From IMG/VR virus record IMGVR_UViG_3300031351_000018, positions 1 to 25,391 of that record: a stretch of DNA of 25,391 bases, one strand, 5' to 3'. The DNA comes from a virus. Below are positions 6,253 to 20,231 of this stretch, piece by piece. The position numbers were made by a program, and so were the translations under genes. A model generated the notes under the pieces. That model did no database searches. It was not told where the DNA came from and saw only the letters and a list, made by a program, of their open reading frames with translations. Each line of letters opens with the position of its first letter. The first letter of the stretch is position 1.

Positions 6253-8379
6253 ATGCCGTATAAGACACTAAGCGAATTACCGCCACCAGTTAAAGATAAT
6301 CTACCCACTCACGCTGAGGAAATATATATGGCAGCCTATAATTCTGCCTGGGAGCAGCACGGGAAGGAAAACAATGCGGAGATAATATGTAATTCGATAG
6401 CGTGGGCTGCCGTCAAGAAAGCCTATAAAAAGAACACCGAGGGCAAATGGGTAGCCAAAGAAGCCGTTCATCCTCATGGCGAGCATATCTGTGTATGCTC
6501 TAAGTGTGGCAAAGAAATAACTGTCCAAGAAGATGTGAGGTGCAACACTCAAGAGTGTCCGGAGTGCGGTGCTCCAATGGTGGCTAAAGAAGCAGGTGAA
6601 AAAAGAACCAAGGAGGCGATTATGCCAAATAAACTAAGTGATGAAAACAAGAGACAACTCATACAACAAGGCTTAACTACTGAATATGGACTTGGTGTGG
6701 ACGATACCATTCCAAGAGGTGTGTGGGTTGAAGATGTCTTTGAAAGTGAAGTAATTTACAACGTTAATGGGCAGTCCTATAAAGTAAGTTATAAGCTAGG
6801 CGAAGATGGGAAAACCACTTTTGGAGAGCCTGAAAAGGTAGCGCGCCAGACAATCTATAAGCCATTGGAATCTCTACGAACTACATACTCCGAGATTATA
6901 CAGGAAGCAGGCAGACGAAATGCCAACTTGGACTCTGCTCGGATAAAGAAGATTGTGGCATTGTGTCAGGAATTGTTGTCTTCTGAAGAGCCAGAGGAGA
7001 AGGAGACCAAGGAAGCCTTGAAAGAGGCTAAGTCAGTCTTAACCCTGATTAAAGAACAGGCAGTTATGAAGACTGAGGATGGTATGAAGTTCCCTGCGGC
7101 TGCCTATGCCTATATCGGAGACCCAGAGAAGTCTACAACCTGGAAACTCCGATTATGGGAAGACCCCACAAAGAAAGTTACCAGGGCACAGTTAGGACGG
7201 GCTGCTGCTGCCTTGAGTCCTGGCGGATTCAGAGGGCAGAAAGTGGCTATACCTTCTGCTGACCTGCCGGCTGTCAAAAGGAAGATAAGGGCTGAATATC
7301 GCAAGCTCGATGTGGAAGATGAGGAAATACCGAGGTGGGTGCGGGAAGTTGAGACGCGGGAAGAAGTATTAGACTATATACCTCTCACGGAGGTCACATT
7401 TGACAAGGGAAGAGCTACTGTAATCATTATCAAGGCTGGATTCAACGCAACTAAAGATAGGTACTATCCCAAGGAAGTTTTGCAGCGGGATTATGGCATC
7501 TTTGAGGGGCTCAAGATGTATGCCGACCACCCGACTGAATCTGAAGAGAAAGAACGCCCTGAGAGGTCGATAAGGGAATGGGTTGCTACACTTAAAGACG
7601 TAACTTGTGATGAAAGTGGCACTGTCGCTGGGGTTGCTGAAATCATCGAACCTTGGTTGATGCAGAAGTTAGCTGCGTTGCGAGATAAGCAGATGCTGTC
7701 TGAAATGGGCATCTCAATCAATGCAGTGGGCAGCGCTTCTAAAACTACCATCGATGGAGTTGAAACGCTCTCAATTGAAAAGTTGGAGCGGGCAAATTCG
7801 GTTGATTTCGTAACTGAACCTGGTGCCGGTGGAGTAGTCACATTATACGAATCGGACAGGCAGAGGAATGTCGATTTAGTGGAACTGGCGACCTTAAAGG
7901 AGCGCCGCCCTGACTTGGTAAAACTTATCGAAACCAATGTCAGAGCAGAAATAACCAAGGAGGTAAAGAAACACATGGACGACCAAGAAAGGATTACTGA
8001 ACTGGAGGGTCAGATTGAAACCCTGACCACAGAGCGCGACAACCTCAAAGAAGCCGCTGAAAAGGCAGAGAAGGAGAAGGCACAAGCCGAAGCACAAGCC
8101 CTCATTAAGGAGGCTGTAGACAAGGCTGAGCTACCCGATGCTGCCAAAGAGCGCCTTATTGAGAGGTTCAAGGATGCGGAGTCTGCTGAGGGAATAGAGG
8201 AAGCGATAAAGGCGGAAGCCGATTATATCGCCAAACTATCCGAGGCGGGCAAGGTTAAGAATCTGGGAGGTTCAACGCCAAATCCTGAGAAGGATAAAGA
8301 AGCGTTGAAGGAATCATTCAAGCGCATGAACCCGGAATGGACAGACGCACAGTTAGAAACTGCTGTCTCTGGGCGCTAA
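6253..8379 (+). CDS. ChaB / zinc ribbon / prohead protease / scaffold fusion protein
   Basis: 708 residues, long for a prohead protease. Residues 1-70 are a ChaB-like domain (PYKTLSELPPPVKDNLPTHA, EEIYMAAYNSAWEQ, IAWAAVKKAY, GKW). A zinc ribbon follows (Cys80/82/85, Cys97/102/105). Residues about 270-350 hold a small alpha-rich module (AYAYIGD ... SADLPAVKRKIRAEYRKL). Residues about 365-545 are protease-like: GFNATKDRYYPKEVL, MYADHPTE with candidate catalytic His426, and EMGISINA with candidate Ser488, followed by RANSVDFVTEPGAGG. From about 575 to 650 a long Glu/Lys/Ala coiled coil forms a scaffold-like tail. The protein likely organises and then processes the procapsid. Ribosome binding site TTAAGGAG precedes the ATG. 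Two in-frame ATGs (6622, 7975) follow AAGGAGG and could give shorter products. Confidence 0.82.
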   Translation: MPYKTLSELPPPVKDNLPTHAEEIYMAAYNSAWEQHGKENNAEIICNSIAWAAVKKAYKKNTEGKWVAKEAVHPHGEHICVCSKCGKEITVQEDVRCNTQECPECGAPMVAKEAGEKRTKEAIMPNKLSDENKRQLIQQGLTTEYGLGVDDTIPRGVWVEDVFESEVIYNVNGQSYKVSYKLGEDGKTTFGEPEKVARQTIYKPLESLRTTYSEIIQEAGRRNANLDSARIKKIVALCQELLSSEEPEEKETKEALKEAKSVLTLIKEQAVMKTEDGMKFPAAAYAYIGDPEKSTTWKLRLWEDPTKKVTRAQLGRAAAALSPGGFRGQKVAIPSADLPAVKRKIRAEYRKLDVEDEEIPRWVREVETREEVLDYIPLTEVTFDKGRATVIIIKAGFNATKDRYYPKEVLQRDYGIFEGLKMYADHPTESEEKERPERSIREWVATLKDVTCDESGTVAGVAEIIEPWLMQKLAALRDKQMLSEMGISINAVGSASKTTIDGVETLSIEKLERANSVDFVTEPGAGGVVTLYESDRQRNVDLVELATLKERRPDLVKLIETNVRAEITKEVKKHMDDQERITELEGQIETLTTERDNLKEAAEKAEKEKAQAEAQALIKEAVDKAELPDAAKERLIERFKDAESAEGIEEAIKAEADYIAKLSEAGKVKNLGGSTPNPEKDKEALKESFKRMNPEWTDAQLETAVSGR
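7975..8379 (+). CDS. Possible nested scaffold protein from internal start
   Basis: An in-frame internal ATG (residue 575 of the fusion) is preceded by AAGGAGGT at 7957-7964, 10 bases from the ATG. It would yield a 134-residue protein made of the coiled-coil region and C-terminal tail only (begins MDDQERITELEGQIETLTTE). Lambda is the known precedent: its C protease gene contains the nested scaffold gene Nu3. Lys-Glu codon pairs make AAGGAG by chance, so the site may be accidental. Confidence 0.4.
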   Translation: MDDQERITELEGQIETLTTERDNLKEAAEKAEKEKAQAEAQALIKEAVDKAELPDAAKERLIERFKDAESAEGIEEAIKAEADYIAKLSEAGKVKNLGGSTPNPEKDKEALKESFKRMNPEWTDAQLETAVSGR

Positions 8380-9492: not shown

Positions 9493-9834
9493 ATGCGTAA
9501 AATAAAACTGGCTGACTACATGGTAAAAGTCAAAGCCCCCGACCAGATGAATCCGGGGAAGATAATAGAGGGCGAATACCCTTATCGTGTCAAGGATTCA
9601 ATTCTCAATCTAATGTTCATTCCAAGTTTGCAATTGAACGGTGCCGAACTGGTCAAGCAGAATGTGCTGGCTATGAAGCTAGAACAATGCAAAGAGGATG
9701 TAATTCTGTTAGAGGATGAGGAATATAACAGGATTAAACGAGCAATAGATACCTTCAAGGGCTTCGGCAGGAACGATGTAGAACTTGTAACACGCATTAA
9801 CGAGGCGGAGGTTGTGGCGGTGGAACAAAAATAA
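9493..9834 (+). CDS. Hypothetical head-region protein
   Basis: 113 residues (begins MRKIKLADYMVKVK). It has a basic N-terminus, a beta/alpha middle (YRVKDSILNLMFIPSLQLNG) and an acidic helical end (LLEDEEYNRIKRAIDTFKGF, then VELVTRINEAEVVAVEQK). Function not recognised; genes of this size between cement and capsid genes are common in Mu-like and lambda-like head clusters. The chosen ATG follows AAAAAAGGAG at about nine bases; an earlier in-frame ATG at 9448 lies inside the previous gene and is rejected. Confidence 0.65.
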   Translation: MRKIKLADYMVKVKAPDQMNPGKIIEGEYPYRVKDSILNLMFIPSLQLNGAELVKQNVLAMKLEQCKEDVILLEDEEYNRIKRAIDTFKGFGRNDVELVTRINEAEVVAVEQK

Positions 9835-9850
9835 ACTAGGAGGTTCTTTG

Positions 9851-10972
9851 ATGGAACTGATGAAGTTAATGGAGGACTGGAAGGGTTTTGTCGCCCTCTC
9901 TGATGTTCAGAGAGGCGAGGGCTATGAGTTAAGGTTAAAGGAGACCATCGACCTGCTCTCAAACGCAATGAACCTTCCAGCCCACAAACACGAATACCTG
10001 ATAAGGGAAGCACTGACCACTTCAGACTTCCCGCTACTGTTCGGCGATGTCCTGGATAGACAGGTCTTGGCTTCCTATAAAGCCGTTGACCCTGTTTGGA
10101 AGGCATTTGTCAAGATGTCCACCGTTCCCAGAATATCCCCTCAAGTCGGCGGATATAGGTTTGCCATTACCGGGGGAGACCAGAAGCTAAATAAAGTAGC
10201 TGAAAAGGGCGAATATCTGGCAAGTGACCGAGACGAAACCAGATATAGCCTATCAGTCGACAAGTATGGGCGCCAGTTTGACATATCTTGGGAAGCACTA
10301 ATCAACGATGACTTGGGTGCTTTGAAGGACACGCCAGAGAGGTTTGCCCGGGCTGCGGTAAGGACTGAACACGACACAGTTACTTCTACTTATGCTGGGA
10401 ACGCAGTGCTCTATAGCAGTGCTGCTGGACAAGGCAATGCCGTAGGTACTGCTTTAAGCATAGCTGCTCTTGAGACAGGGGTAGAGACAATGTCCTCATT
10501 CTTGGATGCTGCTAACCAGCCAATAATGAATAGGGCTAAATATCTAGTCGTGCCCCCAGCACTTGAAATGACGGCTCGCCAAATCTTGACCTCAACCAAC
10601 AAGATGTGGACGGCTGCAGCTGGTGCTGCGATAGCCTACCCAACAACCAATGTAATAGCCACCTATGGATTGTCTTTAATAGTTGACCCGTATCTGGCGA
10701 TATATGGCACCGCTGCCAATCTTACTACTCAGTGGTATCTATTCTCAGACCCGAAGGATATTGCAGCTCTTGAGTTTGCTCATCTTAAAGGACATGAGCG
10801 ACCTGAGATTTGCATGAAGGCAAGCGACAAGGTAACTATTGGCGGTGGGGCAATCACCCCAATGAGTGGCGATTTTGCTACGGACAATGTATTCTACCGA
10901 GTCCGCTTGGTCTTTGGTGGAACTACACTCGATTGGAGAGCCACTTATATAGGCGGAGACAACACACTATAA
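9851..10972 (+). CDS. Major capsid protein (Mu gpT-like, HK97 fold)
   Basis: 373 residues. The segment with WKAFVKMSTVPRISPQ, then GDQKLNKVAEKGEYLASDRD, then YSLSVDKYGRQFDISWEALI, then DDLGALKDTPERFARAAVRT follows the pattern of Mu gpT-type major head subunits: an E-loop and spine-helix arrangement of the HK97 fold. A late YLVVPPALEMTARQILTS segment and a YLFSDPKDIAALEFAHLKGH strand are also typical. The start is ATG 9851, seven bases after AGGAGGT; the frame extends to TTG 9812 inside the previous gene, which is less likely. It forms the icosahedral shell. The N-terminal about 75 helical residues could be a scaffolding delta domain removed by the protease (inference). Confidence 0.9.
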   Translation: MELMKLMEDWKGFVALSDVQRGEGYELRLKETIDLLSNAMNLPAHKHEYLIREALTTSDFPLLFGDVLDRQVLASYKAVDPVWKAFVKMSTVPRISPQVGGYRFAITGGDQKLNKVAEKGEYLASDRDETRYSLSVDKYGRQFDISWEALINDDLGALKDTPERFARAAVRTEHDTVTSTYAGNAVLYSSAAGQGNAVGTALSIAALETGVETMSSFLDAANQPIMNRAKYLVVPPALEMTARQILTSTNKMWTAAAGAAIAYPTTNVIATYGLSLIVDPYLAIYGTAANLTTQWYLFSDPKDIAALEFAHLKGHERPEICMKASDKVTIGGGAITPMSGDFATDNVFYRVRLVFGGTTLDWRATYIGGDNTL

Positions 10973-12564: not shown

Positions 12565-13049
12565 TGGATGGTATAGTTAATCCAACCGATATTCGCCCAA
12601 TCCTAGATATAATCGGTGAATTTGAGGACATTGAGGAGACCCTTGCCGCCATTACTGAAGAGATTATAGAGGATACTGAGGCTATCAGGGCAACTACAGA
12701 TGCCGAGGCTATTTTAAGCGAAATAGCTGGGCAGATAGCCACAGATGGTAATGTGCAGAACCTCTATATTGCCGAAGCTCCAGCAGGTATATTTAGACCT
12801 ATATGCGTCAAGATAGATTTTACCAATCATACCGCCGGTGAAACAGTGGTTATAAAGACTCATTATCGCATAGCCCCTGGGGGTGCCCATATTGAACATG
12901 ATTCAGTGACCTACGCAGGAGTCGTTAGCCCCGAGCTAATCAATATAGACCTAGAACCCAATCGGTATGGAATTAAGGTAACTATCCAAAAGACAGCAGG
13001 AACAAACCGAGCCTACGATTGGGAAGTTTTCTATGAGGAGGCTCCATAA
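12564..13049 (+). CDS. Helical stalk plus beta-domain structural protein
   Basis: 161 residues. The first 70 residues are acidic and heptad-like (IEETLAAITEEIIEDTEAIR), fitting a coiled-coil stalk; residues about 75-161 form an alternating beta domain ending NRAYDWEVFYEEAP. This stalk-plus-head layout suits a fibre or decoration protein. Starts one base into the preceding TAA; the next gene starts one base into its own TAA, so the three genes are probably translated together. Family not recognised. Confidence 0.6.
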   Translation: MDGIVNPTDIRPILDIIGEFEDIEETLAAITEEIIEDTEAIRATTDAEAILSEIAGQIATDGNVQNLYIAEAPAGIFRPICVKIDFTNHTAGETVVIKTHYRIAPGGAHIEHDSVTYAGVVSPELINIDLEPNRYGIKVTIQKTAGTNRAYDWEVFYEEAP

Positions 13050-13771
13050 TGACAGTTCACTATGATGCTTTAGCTATAAACAGAAATATTGCATTAGACC
13101 TTCCGTTCAGGGAAGGAGTTGGAACTATCACTCACAGCCTTGCTAGGACGAAGCCTGTTGTAACGATAGTAGATGTTGGTGGGGTATGGACGACCCTTGA
13201 TTCGTATCTAAATGTTCTTACCCTTAATGGAGCAAACGATTATCTGTGGGCTTCGGCAGCGGATACTGCGCTCTTGGACTTCACTGGTCAGGATTATAGC
13301 ATTGGCGGATGGTTCTTTTTAACATCCGGTGGAGCAGATGATAAAACACTATTAAGTCGCTTTCTTGTAAGCACTGATGGGTGGGAATTATATCATTATA
13401 CAAACCTTATTCTTACCTTGAGGCATCATCACGCAAGTCAGGGAGTGGGCAATGAACGAACATCAGCCTACTCAACTAATTGGGCTTTTAATAAATGGTG
13501 GTTTTTGGGTGTTAGCCGTAACGGAGTAGCAGCTCAATTCTGGCGTGGTGATGTAAATGGATTCGGTTCTCTTACAACAACCATACAAGCAGGCGGGTTG
13601 GTTGACCCTGATGCCTGTAATCGCAATCTCCATATTGGGCGTGATGCTGCTATAGGCACTAATCTTTATAATGGCGGAATGTGGAGACCCAGAATATGGT
13701 TTGAGAGATACATTACTGAAGCCGAATGGCAGCAGATATGGGAAAAAGAAGTGGAATGGTTTAGGTCATGA
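13049..13771 (+). CDS. LamG/concanavalin-like glycan-binding protein (head side)
   Basis: 240 residues. The jelly-roll pattern is clear: YLWASAADTALLDFTGQDYS, then IGGWFFLTSG, then a KTLLSRF strand, WELYHYTNLILTLRHHH, then NKWWFLGVSRNG, and finally NLHIGRDAAIGTNLYNGGMW with RPRIWFERYITEAEWQQIW. The order (framing strands with YSIGGW-F and W-x-x-x-G-V-S-R-x-G) is the Laminin-G_3/LamG-like fold used by phages for surface binding. GAGGAGG precedes the ATG. Its position between the capsid and connector genes suggests display on the head; binding target unknown. Confidence 0.75.
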   Translation: MTVHYDALAINRNIALDLPFREGVGTITHSLARTKPVVTIVDVGGVWTTLDSYLNVLTLNGANDYLWASAADTALLDFTGQDYSIGGWFFLTSGGADDKTLLSRFLVSTDGWELYHYTNLILTLRHHHASQGVGNERTSAYSTNWAFNKWWFLGVSRNGVAAQFWRGDVNGFGSLTTTIQAGGLVDPDACNRNLHIGRDAAIGTNLYNGGMWRPRIWFERYITEAEWQQIWEKEVEWFRS

Positions 13772-14650: not shown

Positions 14651-15132
14651 GCTATGCTTCTCTATTGATTCATTCCTGTATTATTCAGAGATATAGCCAG
14701 GTCAGTATCGTAGTCGGGACTGATAGTCTTGATTACTATTGTATTCTAGCACACACAGCAGCGGTCGCAGATAAGCCTATCACTGGGGGCAACTATACAA
14801 CCTATTGGTATCCCACGGGCGGTTCAGGAGTCGGTGTGGCTTGGGTATTAGGGACTGTTTATGCCGCTTCTGTTGATGGTTATGGGAATCCTGTTTTAAC
14901 ATGGACTGACCGCACATTTGATTGTCGCTTGACTGCAGGTACCGGGAGAGAGATTAAAGTCGGAGCCGAAATTGTCGTGGCCGATTATAAGCTCTTCGTT
15001 GAGTCTATTGATATTATTGAACAGGACAAAGTAGTTATCGGTGGACTAACTTACGAAGTATTGTTAGTTCAAGACTACTCGGATGATGCAGTAAGTCACC
15101 ACAAGCAATGCTGGCTCAGGATAAGCCGTTGA
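14647..15132 (+). CDS. Head closure protein with inserted sugar-binding-like module
   Basis: 161 residues, long for an about-110-residue head closure protein. The parts before 25 (IIQRYSQ) and after 77 (GYGNPVLTWTDRTFDCRLTA, then REIKVGAEIVVADYKLFVES) follow the closure/stopper pattern with conversion of an OB-like beta barrel. Residues about 30-75 are an insertion: YYCILAHTAAVADKPITGG, then TTYWYPTGG and VAWVLGTVYAA. This pattern (Y-x-C-x-x-A-H-T ... P-x-x-G ... Y-W ... W-V-x-G-x-x-Y) is the short carbohydrate-binding-like module often seen in phage fibres. Overlaps both neighbours (4 and 25 bases). Confidence 0.75.
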   Translation: MSYASLLIHSCIIQRYSQVSIVVGTDSLDYYCILAHTAAVADKPITGGNYTTYWYPTGGSGVGVAWVLGTVYAASVDGYGNPVLTWTDRTFDCRLTAGTGREIKVGAEIVVADYKLFVESIDIIEQDKVVIGGLTYEVLLVQDYSDDAVSHHKQCWLRISR

Positions 15133-15488
15133 AGATAAAGACAGATTTTAAGGTGAACCTCAAATCAAAAGAAGTTCAGGATAAGGTAGAAAAGGCAACC
15201 AAACAAGGCATACAAGATGCGGTAGTGGCCATCGCTGGTGATGCTATTAAGTTAAGCCCACATGTGACTGGCAATAATAGGCGGTCAATTATGTTTGAAG
15301 TCGGGCCAGGCAAGCCAGTCGCTCAGGGTGAATTAGAAGGGGCTGTGTATAGCACGTCAGGTTATGGAGGTTTCTTGGAAACTGGGACTGTAAATATGGC
15401 AGCACAACCCTATTTCAAACCAGCTTTAGATAAGAATATAAAGAACCTGCCTAAGAACATAAAGACAAATCTGAGCAGAGGTTTTTAA
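15108..15488 (+). CDS. HK97 gp10-like tail completion protein
   Basis: 126 residues. The middle pattern AIKLSPHVTGNNRRSI, then VYSTSGYGGFLETGTVNMAA, then QPYFKPALDK is the hallmark of the HK97 gp10 family (P-x-x-T-G-x-x-x-x-S ... Y-x-x-x-x-E-x-G-T ... A-x-P-(F/Y)-x-x-P-A). Such proteins act at the head-tail neck or tail completion. It overlaps the closure gene by 25 bases and its TAA overlaps the next ATG by one base. A better-placed internal start is not needed. Confidence 0.88.
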   Translation: MLAQDKPLKIKTDFKVNLKSKEVQDKVEKATKQGIQDAVVAIAGDAIKLSPHVTGNNRRSIMFEVGPGKPVAQGELEGAVYSTSGYGGFLETGTVNMAAQPYFKPALDKNIKNLPKNIKTNLSRGF

Positions 15489-15889
15489 TGGCAATAGCAG
15501 ACACTAATTCAATAATCTTTTCATATTTAGTAACTCAGGCACCCCTTGTGGCTCTCGTGGGTCGCAGGATATTTACTCCCAGACTACCTGAAAATGCGAC
15601 TCTACCGGCTATCAGTTTCTTTACCCGGGGCGGAACTTCAACGCCTTATATACCAGGGATACCAGAGCCCAGCGTTCAGTTCGATTGTTGGGCGGATAAT
15701 CCCATTACAGCCAGGCAAGTCTATTGTGCTCTTTATGATGCACTTCAAGGAATCCAGGATATCACTGTAGGAGCTTATAAAATCCTATCAGCGATTGAAG
15801 AGGTGCAAGGGCAGGATTTAGTCGATGTAGAAATCCCAAACTACTTTAGAACCCTTACCTTTTTCAGAATTATGGTTCGTGCCGAATAA
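15488..15889 (+). CDS. Tail terminator/completion protein (DUF3168-like)
   Basis: 133 residues. Pattern LVTQAPLVALVGRRIFTPRL, then ATLPAISFFTRGG, a VQFDCWADNPITARQVYCAL helix-entry and a last RTLTFFRIMVRAE strand match the DUF3168/gpU-like tail terminator family, which caps the tube at its head-proximal end. Ribosome binding site AGAGG lies upstream, overlapping the stop of the gp10-like gene. It is followed by a 104-base gap with a hairpin before the tail tube genes. Confidence 0.85.
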   Translation: MAIADTNSIIFSYLVTQAPLVALVGRRIFTPRLPENATLPAISFFTRGGTSTPYIPGIPEPSVQFDCWADNPITARQVYCALYDALQGIQDITVGAYKILSAIEEVQGQDLVDVEIPNYFRTLTFFRIMVRAE

Positions 15890-15970: not shown

Positions 15971-15993
15971 ATATCAAAAACAGGAGGTAACAG

Positions 15994-17097
15994 ATGGCGA
16001 ATGTTGTAGCGAATGTTTTAGCAGGAGTAGCGGTACTATCGGTTAGGCAACCGAATGATGCTATCGCAGAATGGGATGATGCAGAACAACAAGCGGGCAC
16101 TTATTCGGTAAAACTCTATAAAGCAGGGACGGGTAATGCCGGGAGCACCCATGTGGAATTTACTCCAATAAACACGGCAATAAAGTTTTCTGAATTCTGT
16201 GCCGATGTTGATACAGGGGCACCTACAGATTACAGCTATTACCATAAGGAATCGGTTACAGATGTACTCAACTGGACGCAGTTTGAACTGCAATTTGACG
16301 ACCCTAATTCTGATGGCTGGGTTCAAATAACCGCCGTAAGGCAGAATGTAGCTGGTGTGGTAGGTTGGAATAAGGAGACATTGGGGCAGACTACACTTTA
16401 TGGGTGTGGTGGCAATACCCCCGATGGGTCATCAGTTTTTGAATGGACAGCCCCATTAGAGAATATGGCTGGCATTCAGGCTAAGGTGCAAGGTTACTTC
16501 AATGCAGCAGAAGGTGGTTCGGGTACTCAACTTCTCAATTATCTTCTGACTAGAGTTCGGATTGAGTTGTGGGAAAATTCAGCGAGGACAGTTTATGTTG
16601 ATACTGTCGTGATAGATGGAGATGCTCACCCATTAGAGCCAGGCTCGGCTACTACGCCAGGTCTTTCCTTGGGTAGCCCATTCACCGAGTTAGGCTACAC
16701 TGAAGATGGTGTAACTATCGAGTATACTGCCGATACTGTCGATATTGAGGTTGAAGAAGAGACTTTCCCTATTAACCGAGTAATAGCAAAGGAAACTCTA
16801 GCTATTACCGCTAATATGGCAGAAAGCTCGCTTGCTAATGTGAACAATGCGATGGCTGGTGCTGTGGTGGTTGGCAGTGTTTTAACATTAGATGCTGGCG
16901 TGAATAAGACAATGAACCTCAAGATAAAAGGAACCAATACGGCTGGCTTCATTCGTGAAATCTATGTTCCTATGGCAACTACTGTGGGTGCAGTTGGGAT
17001 GTCCTATAAGAAGGGAGAGAAGACGGTAGTTCCCATCACATTCCAAGCCTTAAAAGATATTAGCGATGCTTGCACGATAGTGGACAATGTGGTGTAA
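15994..17097 (+). CDS. Tail tube protein A with inserted beta-sandwich domain
   Basis: 367 residues. Residues 1-14 (MANVVANVLAGVAV) and 234-367 align with the next gene without gaps over 134 residues, including GYTEDGVTIEYTAD, then EVEEETFPINRVIAKET and the end GMSYKKGEKTVVPITFQALK. This is the tail tube fold. Residues about 16-228 are an insertion of about 210 residues with jelly-roll pattern: GTYSVKLYKAGTGNAGSTHV, then FELQFDDPNSDGWVQITA, then RVRIELWENSARTVYVDTVV, like carbohydrate-binding modules. The domain probably projects from the tube surface. CAGGAGGTAAC lies just before the ATG. Which of the two tube proteins forms the main tube cannot be told. Confidence 0.82.
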   Translation: MANVVANVLAGVAVLSVRQPNDAIAEWDDAEQQAGTYSVKLYKAGTGNAGSTHVEFTPINTAIKFSEFCADVDTGAPTDYSYYHKESVTDVLNWTQFELQFDDPNSDGWVQITAVRQNVAGVVGWNKETLGQTTLYGCGGNTPDGSSVFEWTAPLENMAGIQAKVQGYFNAAEGGSGTQLLNYLLTRVRIELWENSARTVYVDTVVIDGDAHPLEPGSATTPGLSLGSPFTELGYTEDGVTIEYTADTVDIEVEEETFPINRVIAKETLAITANMAESSLANVNNAMAGAVVVGSVLTLDAGVNKTMNLKIKGTNTAGFIREIYVPMATTVGAVGMSYKKGEKTVVPITFQALKDISDACTIVDNVV

Positions 17098-17125
17098 AAA
17101 ATAAATCAATGGGAGGTAAAAGGAA

Positions 17126-17620
17126 ATGGCGAATACTGTAGCAAATGTTCTGGTAGGGGTGGCAACAGTAAAGATGGGAGCCGCAGGGAATGCGGCTGCG
17201 GCAGCCACTCTGTTGGGATACACTGAAGATGGTGTGACGCTGGAATATACGGCTGATATTGCCGATATAGAGGTTGAAGAAGAGACTTTCCCCATCAACA
17301 GGGTAATCACTAAGGAAACCGTCACGGTCACCCTTAATTGCGCTGAATCACTCCTAGCTAATCTCGGTTATGCTATGGGTGGAGCGGATGGACTCGTAAG
17401 TCCTGTTGTGCTTGGTGGTGGAGCTTTACAAGAATTTTCACTCAAGATAGACGGGATTCCCCCGCTTGCCACTAGTCGCACTATTGAGATTAATTGGGTT
17501 CACGCTATTGGAACTGTTGGGATGGCCTACAAAAAGGGGGAGAAGACGGTTATTCCCGTAAGTTTCGCTGCTTTCAAAGGTCTGGAGACAGACGATGTTG
17601 TCACAATAACTGATGTCTAA
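17126..17620 (+). CDS. Tail tube protein B (plain paralogue)
   Basis: 164 residues, a usual length for a compact tail tube protein. It begins MANTVANVLVGVATVKMGAA and then has a short Ala-rich loop (about residues 17-29) where protein A carries its large domain. LGYTEDGVTLEYTAD, EVEEETFPINRVITKET and AYKKGEKTVIPVSFAAFKG parallel protein A. GGGAGGTAAAAGG lies before the ATG, 29 bases after protein A. Tandem paralogues suggest either a mixed tube or one major and one minor subunit; the sequence alone does not decide. Confidence 0.85.
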   Translation: MANTVANVLVGVATVKMGAAGNAAAAATLLGYTEDGVTLEYTADIADIEVEEETFPINRVITKETVTVTLNCAESLLANLGYAMGGADGLVSPVVLGGGALQEFSLKIDGIPPLATSRTIEINWVHAIGTVGMAYKKGEKTVIPVSFAAFKGLETDDVVTITDV

Positions 17621-17641: not shown

Positions 17642-18028
17642 ATGAAAAGGACAGAAGAACAGATAGTGGCTCAAGCGCCTATCATTGTCGTTCTGGGTGG
17701 CAAAGACTATCCGGTTAAGCCCCTAGTTATACGGGAAGCTAGGGCGTGGCGGCAGAAGGTGGTAGAAGTTATCGCCAAGCTGCCGGAGCATCTACAAGCG
17801 ACCACTGATACCCCTGAAAGTTTCGATGCTGCGCTGAAGGCACTGCTTGTCACGATGCAGGATACAGTCCTGGACTTGTTTTTTGAGTATGCCAAGGACT
17901 TGGACCGAGAGGAAATAGAGGGAATCGCCACGGAAGAGGATGTCGCTGAGGCGTTTAGCCGGGTTGTCGAGGTGGCATTCCCTTTAGCACGAAGCCTTCC
18001 GGAGTTGAGGGGGAGACTCTTTCGGTAG
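17642..18028 (+). CDS. Tail assembly chaperone, short form (gpG-like)
   Basis: 128 residues, between the tail tube and tape measure, the fixed place of the gpG/gpGT pair. It opens with a small beta segment (PIIVVLGGKDYPVKPLVIRE) and continues as helices (ARAWRQKVVEVIAKL, LDLFFEYAKDLDREEIEGIA, FSRVVEVAFPLARSL). It ends in TAG at 18026-18028. A -1 frame opens at 17959 and runs without a stop into the next ORF, with a GGGGG run (18009-18013) where a ribosome could slip. AAAAGGAGTATGTC precedes the ATG. Confidence 0.75.
   Translation: MKRTEEQIVAQAPIIVVLGGKDYPVKPLVIREARAWRQKVVEVIAKLPEHLQATTDTPESFDAALKALLVTMQDTVLDLFFEYAKDLDREEIEGIATEEDVAEAFSRVVEVAFPLARSLPELRGRLFR
18009..18013 (+). promoter_or_regulatory. 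Candidate -1 ribosomal frameshift site
   Basis: In the gpG-like frame the codons read AGG GGG AGA. The Gly codon can re-pair one base back on GGG. It is not a classical X-XXY-YYZ heptamer. The slip must occur between 17959 (after the last -1-frame stop) and 18028; this run is the best candidate I see. Confidence 0.45.
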
Positions 18029-18461: not shown

Positions 18462-20231
18462 ATTAGTATTTCAATTGGTGATGCTTTACTTAAAATAGGT
18501 GTAGACAAGAAAGACTTTGACCGAGATATGAAAGGTCTGTCCGGTGCCATTAACAAGCACAAGAAAGCCATCGGCGTTGCCATGATTGGTATGGGGGTTG
18601 CTGCGATTGGCGCTGCGGCAGCAAGCATCAAGGCTTTCGCTGATATGGGCGATGAAGTGCAGAAAATGGCTCTTCGGACCGACTTTTCTACTGAGGCTTT
18701 ATCAGAATTGCGCCATGCTGCTGAAATAAGCGGTGCTGATTTAGGCACACTTGAAAAAGGCGTTAAGAAGATGTCCAAAACCATCGTTGATGCTGATGAG
18801 GGAATGGCTACTTATATTCGGTCATTTGACCGCATAGGACTTTCCGCCCAAGAGTTAATGGAACTTTCCCCCGAAGAGCAGTTTAACAAGATAACTATGG
18901 CAATTGCCGACCTTGAAAGCCCCACATTGAAGGCAGCCACAGCACAGGATATATTCGGACGAGCCGGCACGGCACTATTGCCCTTGCTTGCTGAGGGTGC
19001 TGATGGCATAGCTGAACTTCGCCAAGAGGCTCATAAGTTGGGTATTGTCTTTGACCAGGAAGCAGCCAATAAAGCTGCCGAATTTAATGACAGTTTAACC
19101 CGCCTCAATGGAGCCCTAAATGGTGTGAAATTTACTTTAGCAAAAGAGTTGATGCCCGCAATGGAAGCTGGCATTCCTCTACTGGAGAAATGGGTTGTAG
19201 CATTAGGACCTTGGATTGAAACTGCCCTTAATTGGAATGCCGTCCAAGATAAACAGGTAAAGATGCATAGAGCTTGGCAGACTATGGCGCAGGAAAGATA
19301 CAGAGCCCTTCAGGGATTAAGCAATGAATATGAGCAAGCCGTTGATTTACTGGAAGCCACACTGAAAAATCAAGGTCTTTTGAATGCACAAGCTATCGAG
19401 ACGATTAAGGGGTTAAGAGAGGAAATCGAGGCAAGGAAAGACCACCAAGAAGAACTCGAAGGAACCAATGAATTACTAGAAGAGCAGGTAGAGGCTTACG
19501 AAGCGGTTACCAAGCAGATTGAAGATGCAATCAAGGAAATGGAATATGAGCGAAGCGCTGCTGGTAGATTAAGTATAAGTATTGATGATGTTATCACGGC
19601 ATTACACTTGATGGGCAAATCTAACGAATATATCTCTGATACCTTAGTTGGGCTGGGAGATGAGGGCGATAATGTTATAAAGGTTCTTGAGGCTTTCGGT
19701 ATATCGGCAGAAGAGATTAATTTTATTCTCGGACGCCAAAAAATTGCTGTAGATGGATTAGCAGATTCCTATAAAAGATATGGAGAGGAAGTCGATAAGG
19801 TAAAGGAAAAAGCGGGACTACCATCACTTGCCGCACAAGAAAAAGAGTGGGAAAAGGAATTCCAATCTTGGTATAACGACTATAAAGCTGCTGGTGGGAC
19901 TTTAACTTATAAACGATGGCTGGAATACGGGAGACCAACCGAACCCTGGCAAGAGGAGATATTCAAAAAGTATCGCACAGGAGAATTGACGGCTCCTGAA
20001 ATCCCAGGGGGAATGCCTAGCTTTCAACATGGTGGTATCGCTATGCGCCCTATAACAGCCAAGATAGCCGAGGATAGACCAGAGGCAGTAATACCACTAG
20101 ATAGGATGGGAGGAATAATGGGTGACAGAAGAGTCAATATTTATGTGGAATTGGATGGCAGGACAATCGCCAAAGCGGTAGGTCAACCTCTAGTAGATGA
20201 AATAAGGTTAAAAACAGGAGTGCATATCTAA
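18462..20231 (+). CDS. Tape measure protein, apparent ATT start
   Basis: 589 residues from ATT 18462, which lies five bases after AAGGAGG (18450-18456). The first 22 codons read (M)SISIGDALLKIGVDKKDFD and so on, the usual tape measure opening (x-GDALLK-x-GVDKK-x-F). The first ATG, at 18528, has no ribosome binding site and would lose this segment. A hydrophobic helix AIGVAMIGMGVAAIGAAAAS is followed by KMALRTDFSTEALSELRHAA. A long coiled coil spans about residues 290-365, and the C-terminus has RPEAVIPLDRMGG, the common tape measure end. At about 1.5 A per residue the length suggests a tail near 90 nm (inference). Confidence 0.85.
   Translation: MSISIGDALLKIGVDKKDFDRDMKGLSGAINKHKKAIGVAMIGMGVAAIGAAAASIKAFADMGDEVQKMALRTDFSTEALSELRHAAEISGADLGTLEKGVKKMSKTIVDADEGMATYIRSFDRIGLSAQELMELSPEEQFNKITMAIADLESPTLKAATAQDIFGRAGTALLPLLAEGADGIAELRQEAHKLGIVFDQEAANKAAEFNDSLTRLNGALNGVKFTLAKELMPAMEAGIPLLEKWVVALGPWIETALNWNAVQDKQVKMHRAWQTMAQERYRALQGLSNEYEQAVDLLEATLKNQGLLNAQAIETIKGLREEIEARKDHQEELEGTNELLEEQVEAYEAVTKQIEDAIKEMEYERSAAGRLSISIDDVITALHLMGKSNEYISDTLVGLGDEGDNVIKVLEAFGISAEEINFILGRQKIAVDGLADSYKRYGEEVDKVKEKAGLPSLAAQEKEWEKEFQSWYNDYKAAGGTLTYKRWLEYGRPTEPWQEEIFKKYRTGELTAPEIPGGMPSFQHGGIAMRPITAKIAEDRPEAVIPLDRMGGIMGDRRVNIYVELDGRTIAKAVGQPLVDEIRLKTGVHI

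Follow-up and report, generated by a model that had tools for sequence, protein, structure and literature searches.

An uncultured virus of bacteria, represented by a 25,391-base IMG/VR record (the window, by which we mean the whole stretch of DNA analysed), carries two adjacent tail tube genes, the first of which (here LONG) appears to encode a tube subunit with a glycan-binding-like jelly-roll domain in its first beta-hairpin and the second (SHORT) the same fold free of that domain. We consider it fairly probable that the two products form a mixed tube of a siphophage-type tail displaying glycan-binding domains, comparable to the gp17.1/gp17.1* tube of phage SPP1. In the proposed arrangement the insert would hang off the outside of the tube, and a tube most likely built from LONG and SHORT would carry adhesion domains along the whole length of the tail. 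Such domains may make numerous weak contacts with sugars on the host surface until the tail tip meets its receptor; by analogy with phage Douge, the lactococcal 936 phages and SPP1, LONG would supply the many weak contacts and SHORT would dilute them. Relatives would do the same job with LONG alone (every subunit decorated) or with a plain tube and one or two separate proteins, here called DEC, and in one relative the same domain is built into DEC.

Tandem tail tube genes in the window

The window contains a head and tail gene module (terminase, portal, capsid plus protease, adaptor, neck proteins and tail terminator), in which the tail genes follow the order tail terminator, two tube genes, probable chaperone and tape measure. 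The features of this region are as follows:

15108-15488, + strand: HK97 gp10-like neck/tail completion protein (PF04883, E 1.2e-4; phrog_5, E 5.4e-16)
15488-15889, + strand: tail terminator, the synteny anchor upstream of LONG (phrog_123 tail terminator, E 6.6e-7)
15982-15988, + strand: AGGAGGT, ribosome-binding-site-like sequence 5' of LONG
15994-17097, + strand: LONG, open reading frame for a tail tube protein with an inserted CBM-like domain, 367 aa
15994-16038, + strand: LONG N-terminal strand beta1, residues 1-15, common to SHORT (11/17 identical; strand E4-18 in the model)
16048-16671, + strand: LONG insert, jelly-roll, carbohydrate-binding module (CBM)-like, about residues 19-226, in the beta1-beta2 hairpin (pLDDT mostly 75-96; Foldseek matches in the PDB; conserved family)
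16684-17094, + strand: LONG tail tube core, residues 231-367 (54% identical to SHORT; tail tube fold matches)
17112-17116, + strand: GGAGG, ribosome-binding-site-like sequence 5' of SHORT
17126-17620, + strand: SHORT, plain tail tube protein, 164 aa (phrog_2175/476/885; top Foldseek matches are tail tube proteins)
17642-18028, + strand: probable tail assembly chaperone, named by position; this gene, lying after the tube and before the tape measure, is conserved in almost every relative
18528-20231, + strand: tape measure protein, 567 aa (phrog_8462, E 3.6e-34)

LONG and SHORT each have their own Shine-Dalgarno-like site at the usual spacing to the start. BLASTP aligned LONG residues 231-364 with SHORT residues 28-163 (54% identity, E 6e-42); the alignment has a single gap, of 2 residues, close to the C-terminus, and the two are, judged by sequence, paralogues. 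Both retain the stretch GYTEDGV..DIEVEEETFPI in the beta2-beta3 loop region. An earlier note on this DNA had described the first 14 residues as shared and the last 134 as aligned without gaps; the N-termini proved similar rather than identical (11 of the first 17 residues match), and the ungapped alignment holds except for the last few residues. The extra stretch of some 210 residues that it ascribed to LONG was recovered by BLASTP between residues ~16 and ~226. Its assignment of the pair as tandem tail tube paralogues agrees with the fold searches, with the PHROG annotation "major tail protein" and with the position between terminator and tape measure: the LONG core matches phrog_2175 and phrog_476, SHORT matches phrog_2175 (E 2e-18), and the phrog_476 major tail protein profile matches 32 out of 32 members of our family alignment (A1). 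For the probable chaperone, Pfam and PHROG profile searches gave no convincing family match.

Elsewhere in the window, the head maturation protease-like (6253-8379) and major head protein-like (9812-10972) open reading frames are separate, with a 349-aa frame between them, and both are spanned by a single PHROG profile, phrog_29592. A 240-aa protein of the head-tail region (13049-13771) has a weak lectin-like (receptor-binding) Pfam match below the cut-off and is possibly a further surface sugar-binding protein.

Predicted folds of the tube core and the insert

The AlphaFold2 model of LONG, built with 32 relatives, has a mean pLDDT of 79.6 (mostly 75-96 for residues 20-220, ~48-84 for the core). 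The insert is predicted to be folded, with pLDDT near 90, and lies between strands E4-18 and E231-250, which form the first beta-hairpin. The SHORT model has a mean pLDDT of 64.6, and confidence in the core is only moderate in both models. The best Foldseek matches of SHORT in the PDB are all tail tube proteins (Bxb1, Mystique, Douge, SPR and HFTV1), the first at E 5.9e-5 and probability 1.00 for a model of moderate confidence, and SHORT has the beta-sandwich plus helix of the tail tube fold. For LONG, the PDB matches include CBM30, CBM16, CBM11 and the X584 laminarin CBM alongside tail tube proteins, with weak scores (E 0.002-0.04, probability mostly 1.00, TM ~0.5 of the target), and numerous major tail proteins were matched in BFVD. 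The matches of the insert to the four CBM structures (probability 0.98-1.00, E 0.003-0.04, TM ~0.5 of the target) are weak but consistent, and correspond to a jelly-roll CBM fold. Structure prediction of both proteins thus upheld the earlier view of shared parts with a tail tube fold and of a folded, jelly-roll, CBM-like extra region at an internal loop.

None of the 32 family members has a Pfam CBM match, and a sequence-profile search of the PDB with tube, insert and DEC gave nothing usable. As modelled, the insert is CBM-like by fold outside any named CBM family and, since no Pfam CBM family matches, its putative sugar binding rests on resemblance of fold.

Tube genes and putative decoration genes among relatives

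Scans of IMG/VR (P0002, P0001, four alignments) yielded ~180 loci, to which two from metagenome-assembled genomes (MAGs) were added. Removal of identical tube sets left 111 loci, and 106 were classed after five distant ones had been set aside. The synteny terminator - tube - chaperone - tape measure is found in the window and ~100 loci. The insert recurs at the same site in ~70 distinct relatives, with ~35-55% identity to that of the window; this recurrence, together with a fold predicted at pLDDT near 90, argues against a chance insertion.

The earlier note had proposed a search for phages having only one of the two genes, and such phages exist on both sides: 68 of the 106 classed loci have LONG as their only tube gene, and 32 have SHORT. 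Every one of the lone-SHORT loci (32 out of 32) has one or two DEC genes upstream, nearly always immediately, between terminator and tube. Two tube genes occur in 6 loci representing five distinct viruses, the window included; the decorated gene comes first and a plain SHORT second, and DEC is absent. LONG is paired with SHORT in the window, in L008 and in the near-twin of L008 (L007/L060), and an Ig-like copy is paired with SHORT in L003, L005 and L006. A decorated tube gene and DEC were found together in 0 of the 106 classed loci. L157, a distant locus outside this set, has a plain tube gene and no recognised DEC.

The Ig-like paralogues (251-253 aa; phrog_807, phrog_18315), always with a plain SHORT next, are:

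L003, 9264-10025: Ig-like tube paralogue
L005, 2141-2896: Ig-like tube paralogue
L006, 8380-9135: Ig-like tube paralogue

Their insert of ~75 residues lies between the helix and the next strand. The decorated gene of a two-gene locus has one of two distinct inserts, each in a loop of its own, and a plain copy stands next to it.

The DEC genes (e.g. L015:2428-2796, L009:5044-5794, L013:8117-8494 and about 30 other loci) encode conserved proteins of ~120 aa with NDGKT..GPF.P..WN motifs. DEC has no Pfam match except one weak hit to Big_1 and none in the PDB, and homologues of the insert or of DEC were absent from 50,697 cultured phage records. In L066 (2395-3435), a 346-aa DEC directly before a plain tube gene is split by the CBM-like domain that is also inserted in LONG: the DEC model matches residues 1-53 and 274-346, and the domain model residues 72-269 (E 4e-55). 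This domain is closest to the inserted domains of the window and L020, from which a long branch separates it. The occurrence of one domain in two unrelated carriers at the same gene position suggests, at the level of sequence, that LONG and DEC are both displayed on the same surface, and we infer a location of DEC on the tail. In the distant loci L125, L130, L136 and L137, which have a tube protein of ~205 aa, the DEC-like gene precedes the terminator and lies close to the head genes; DEC may have originated as a head decoration protein or may still function as one.

A few loci depart from the common layout. In L042 (4523-5638), a LONG-only locus, an in-frame stop where the insert joins the core breaks LONG. 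HNH-endonuclease-like genes, recognised by eye from the sequence, stand between terminator and tube in L042 (3417-4157), L040 (8234-8998), L043 (6046-6666) and L038 (2390-2878). As regards the host, one LONG was found in a Chloroflexota MAG and one SHORT with DEC in a Lithacetigena MAG; in a 400-genome sample of the Chloroflexota phylum, no more than 2 further genomes matched the core, and these weakly.

Evolutionary history of core, insert and cassette

In the core tree the LONG proteins form one group (support 87/94; 81 in a larger tree), as do the Ig-like copies (100) and the companion SHORTs (96/99, weaker at 76 in the larger tree). The window LONG is sister to the LONG of L007/L008 (core sisters at 100/98) and is placed among LONG-only phages, and the window SHORT groups with the companion SHORTs. 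Because of this placement the pair is read, from the sequences, as two older lines in separate clades, and the history implied by the earlier note, a modified copy beside its unmodified twin, does not fit the tree. The cores of LONG and SHORT showed no sign of partner-specific coadaptation: the identity of a LONG to its own SHORT (0.53-0.61) falls within the range for non-partners.

The insert has a different history from the core. A tree with the inserted domains of the window and L008 (L007) as sisters was rejected (p-AU 0.0005). Mean identity is 46% for the insert vs 63% for the core (correlation 0.38), and L024 and L078 share 93% core identity but 51% insert identity. By these sequence comparisons the domain is exchanged between tube genes, as expected for a binding module under exchange.

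The trees of neighbouring genes conflict with the tube tree, requiring ~15-20 state changes, and so the tube and its decoration appear to move between backbones as a cassette. On the core tree alone, the mutual exclusion of DEC and LONG could reflect one or two events. The well-supported independent contrasts (3 on the terminator tree, 4 on the gp10 tree and 7 on the chaperone tree) are all in the opposite direction; 7 out of 7 on the chaperone tree corresponds to p 0.016 in a sign test, the terminator and gp10 contrasts being too few for one. The contrasts show the cassettes to be maintained as alternatives, but alone they fall short of proving functional exclusion, because tube and DEC may travel together as linked DNA.

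These patterns lead us to propose, tentatively and at somewhat less than even odds, an exchangeable decoration slot by the tube gene, with one solution per tail and swapping of the solutions as cassettes between phage lineages. The slot would be filled in cis (a tube insert) or in trans (a DEC gene), with three solutions: a domain in the tube protein, decorated and plain paralogues, or separate DEC protein(s), into which the same sugar-binding-like domain can also be taken up. If this is true, the DEC proteins would be free-standing decorations of the tail tube and form a new family. A single phage group whose decoration is part of the tube protein, belongs to a paralogue or apparently sits on a separate protein would make a natural series which, with the same domain in two carriers, offers a comparative test of the purpose of the decoration and of the tolerance of the tube. 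The purpose of Ig- or sugar-binding domains on phage tail tubes is an open question (PMC8718954).

Proposed composition of the tube and possible role of the insert

Stacking of tail tube rings runs through the beta2-beta3 loop, and the lumen, bounded by the inner sheet, is narrow (PMC8718954); a 200-residue insert in the bulk subunit should for these reasons lie outside. The first beta-hairpin would then be a loop that accepts a domain of this size in a bulk tube subunit. In 68 relatives no tube gene other than LONG is present. A whole tube can thus accommodate the insert, which is more than part of a minor ring, and the "minor decorated ring" of the earlier note can be set aside as a general role.

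The two-gene phages themselves might still use SHORT for nearly the whole tube and LONG for a minor specialised ring, e.g. near the neck or the tip. SHORT does resemble the lone tube genes that make tails together with DEC, and in L007/L060 it is intact beside a broken LONG: in L060 (10001-10875), from a virus near-identical to that of L008 (4535-5608), 199 bases of the insert are missing and the LONG frame is shifted in consequence. LONG may be dispensable there, L060 being a deletion mutant, or the loss may be an assembly error or collapse. We nevertheless regard this arrangement as unlikely, because the core clade of the LONGs that serve as sole tube gene includes the window's LONG, whose core is by that token a bulk tube subunit's, and the beta2-beta3 loop stretch is kept in both copies.

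The insert could also be a structural clamp between neighbouring subunits that binds no sugar, like domain2 of YSD1, which is likewise inserted, folds as a beta-sandwich and makes the ring stiffer (PMC8718954); the lack of a Pfam CBM match is in keeping with this. The fold matches of the insert are, however, of CBM type, the same domain occurs in the DEC of L066, and its lower conservation and exchange between cores fit a receptor-facing module, all of which makes a clamp distinctly unlikely.

The converse division of labour, with LONG as the main tube protein and SHORT as a minor plain subunit placed where decoration would clash (first or last rings), agrees with LONG being enough by itself in most relatives. 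It is improbable in our view, as the companion SHORT clade also partners the unrelated Ig-like decorated copy and SHORT is for that reason not specific to LONG tails. Finally, a recent tandem duplication followed by domain insertion into one copy, with no functional partnership, is hardly credible: the genes are adjacent and similar, and their core parts share a mild excess of codons (24/42 identical vs 16 expected), but the core tree disfavours such an origin of the window pair, since LONG and the companion SHORT (96/99) belong there to two different clades, each also represented in other phages. As a trace of gene conversion between the two window copies, the analysis gave no more than that mild codon excess.

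Comparison with known systems

Decorated tubes, mixed tubes, inserted tube domains and tandem tube genes are each already known. For their combination, the insertion site, the sole-subunit use across a phage group and the alternation with DEC, we found no description in the literature, the coverage of which was incomplete.

Several homologous tube genes close together occur in DizzyRudy, a cluster EL Microbacterium phage with tandem "major tail protein" genes gp17, gp19 and gp20 (PMC11080557), of which gp19 (586 aa) is much larger. The sequence family is nevertheless unrelated (phrog_2645; no hhalign match to LONG or SHORT), and the extra part of gp19 is C-terminal.

The earlier note had implied that internal decoration is unusual, but YSD1, with a single tube gene, has a domain inserted between alpha1 and beta4, which clamps the neighbouring subunit (PMC8718954). 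YSD1/Chi domain2 resembles the LONG insert as a beta-sandwich inside a tube protein; the LONG insert, however, lies in the beta1-beta2 hairpin, and it is the Ig-like copies of L003, L005 and L006 that have theirs at the place corresponding to that of YSD1.

Domains borne by the tube protein are also known from Douge, whose Ig-like domain binds the host surface and is proposed to hold the tail along the cell (PMC13033339); that domain is C-terminal, and there is no inserted one. In lactococcal 936 phages, a fraction of the major tail protein subunits (those with TpeX) carry a CBM that binds host cells (PMC6669499). LONG would share with TpeX a carbohydrate-binding module on the tail tube, in LONG's case by fold. 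TpeX, in contrast, is C-terminal, made by frameshift and BppA-like, where LONG has a first-hairpin insertion with a CBM30/16/11-like fold.

The SPP1 tube consists of plain and FN3-extended subunits (gp17.1/gp17.1*) at ~3:1; its decoration has been proposed to bind host-surface sugars, and the decorated form is reported to be dispensable for viable virions (PMC8718954). A similar mixture of plain and decorated subunits in one tube is what we propose here for the window, which has the two genes in intact form. SPP1 obtains it from one gene by a programmed frameshift that adds a C-terminal FN3 domain, whereas the window would obtain it from two diverged genes in separate open reading frames, one of them with an internal CBM-like insertion.
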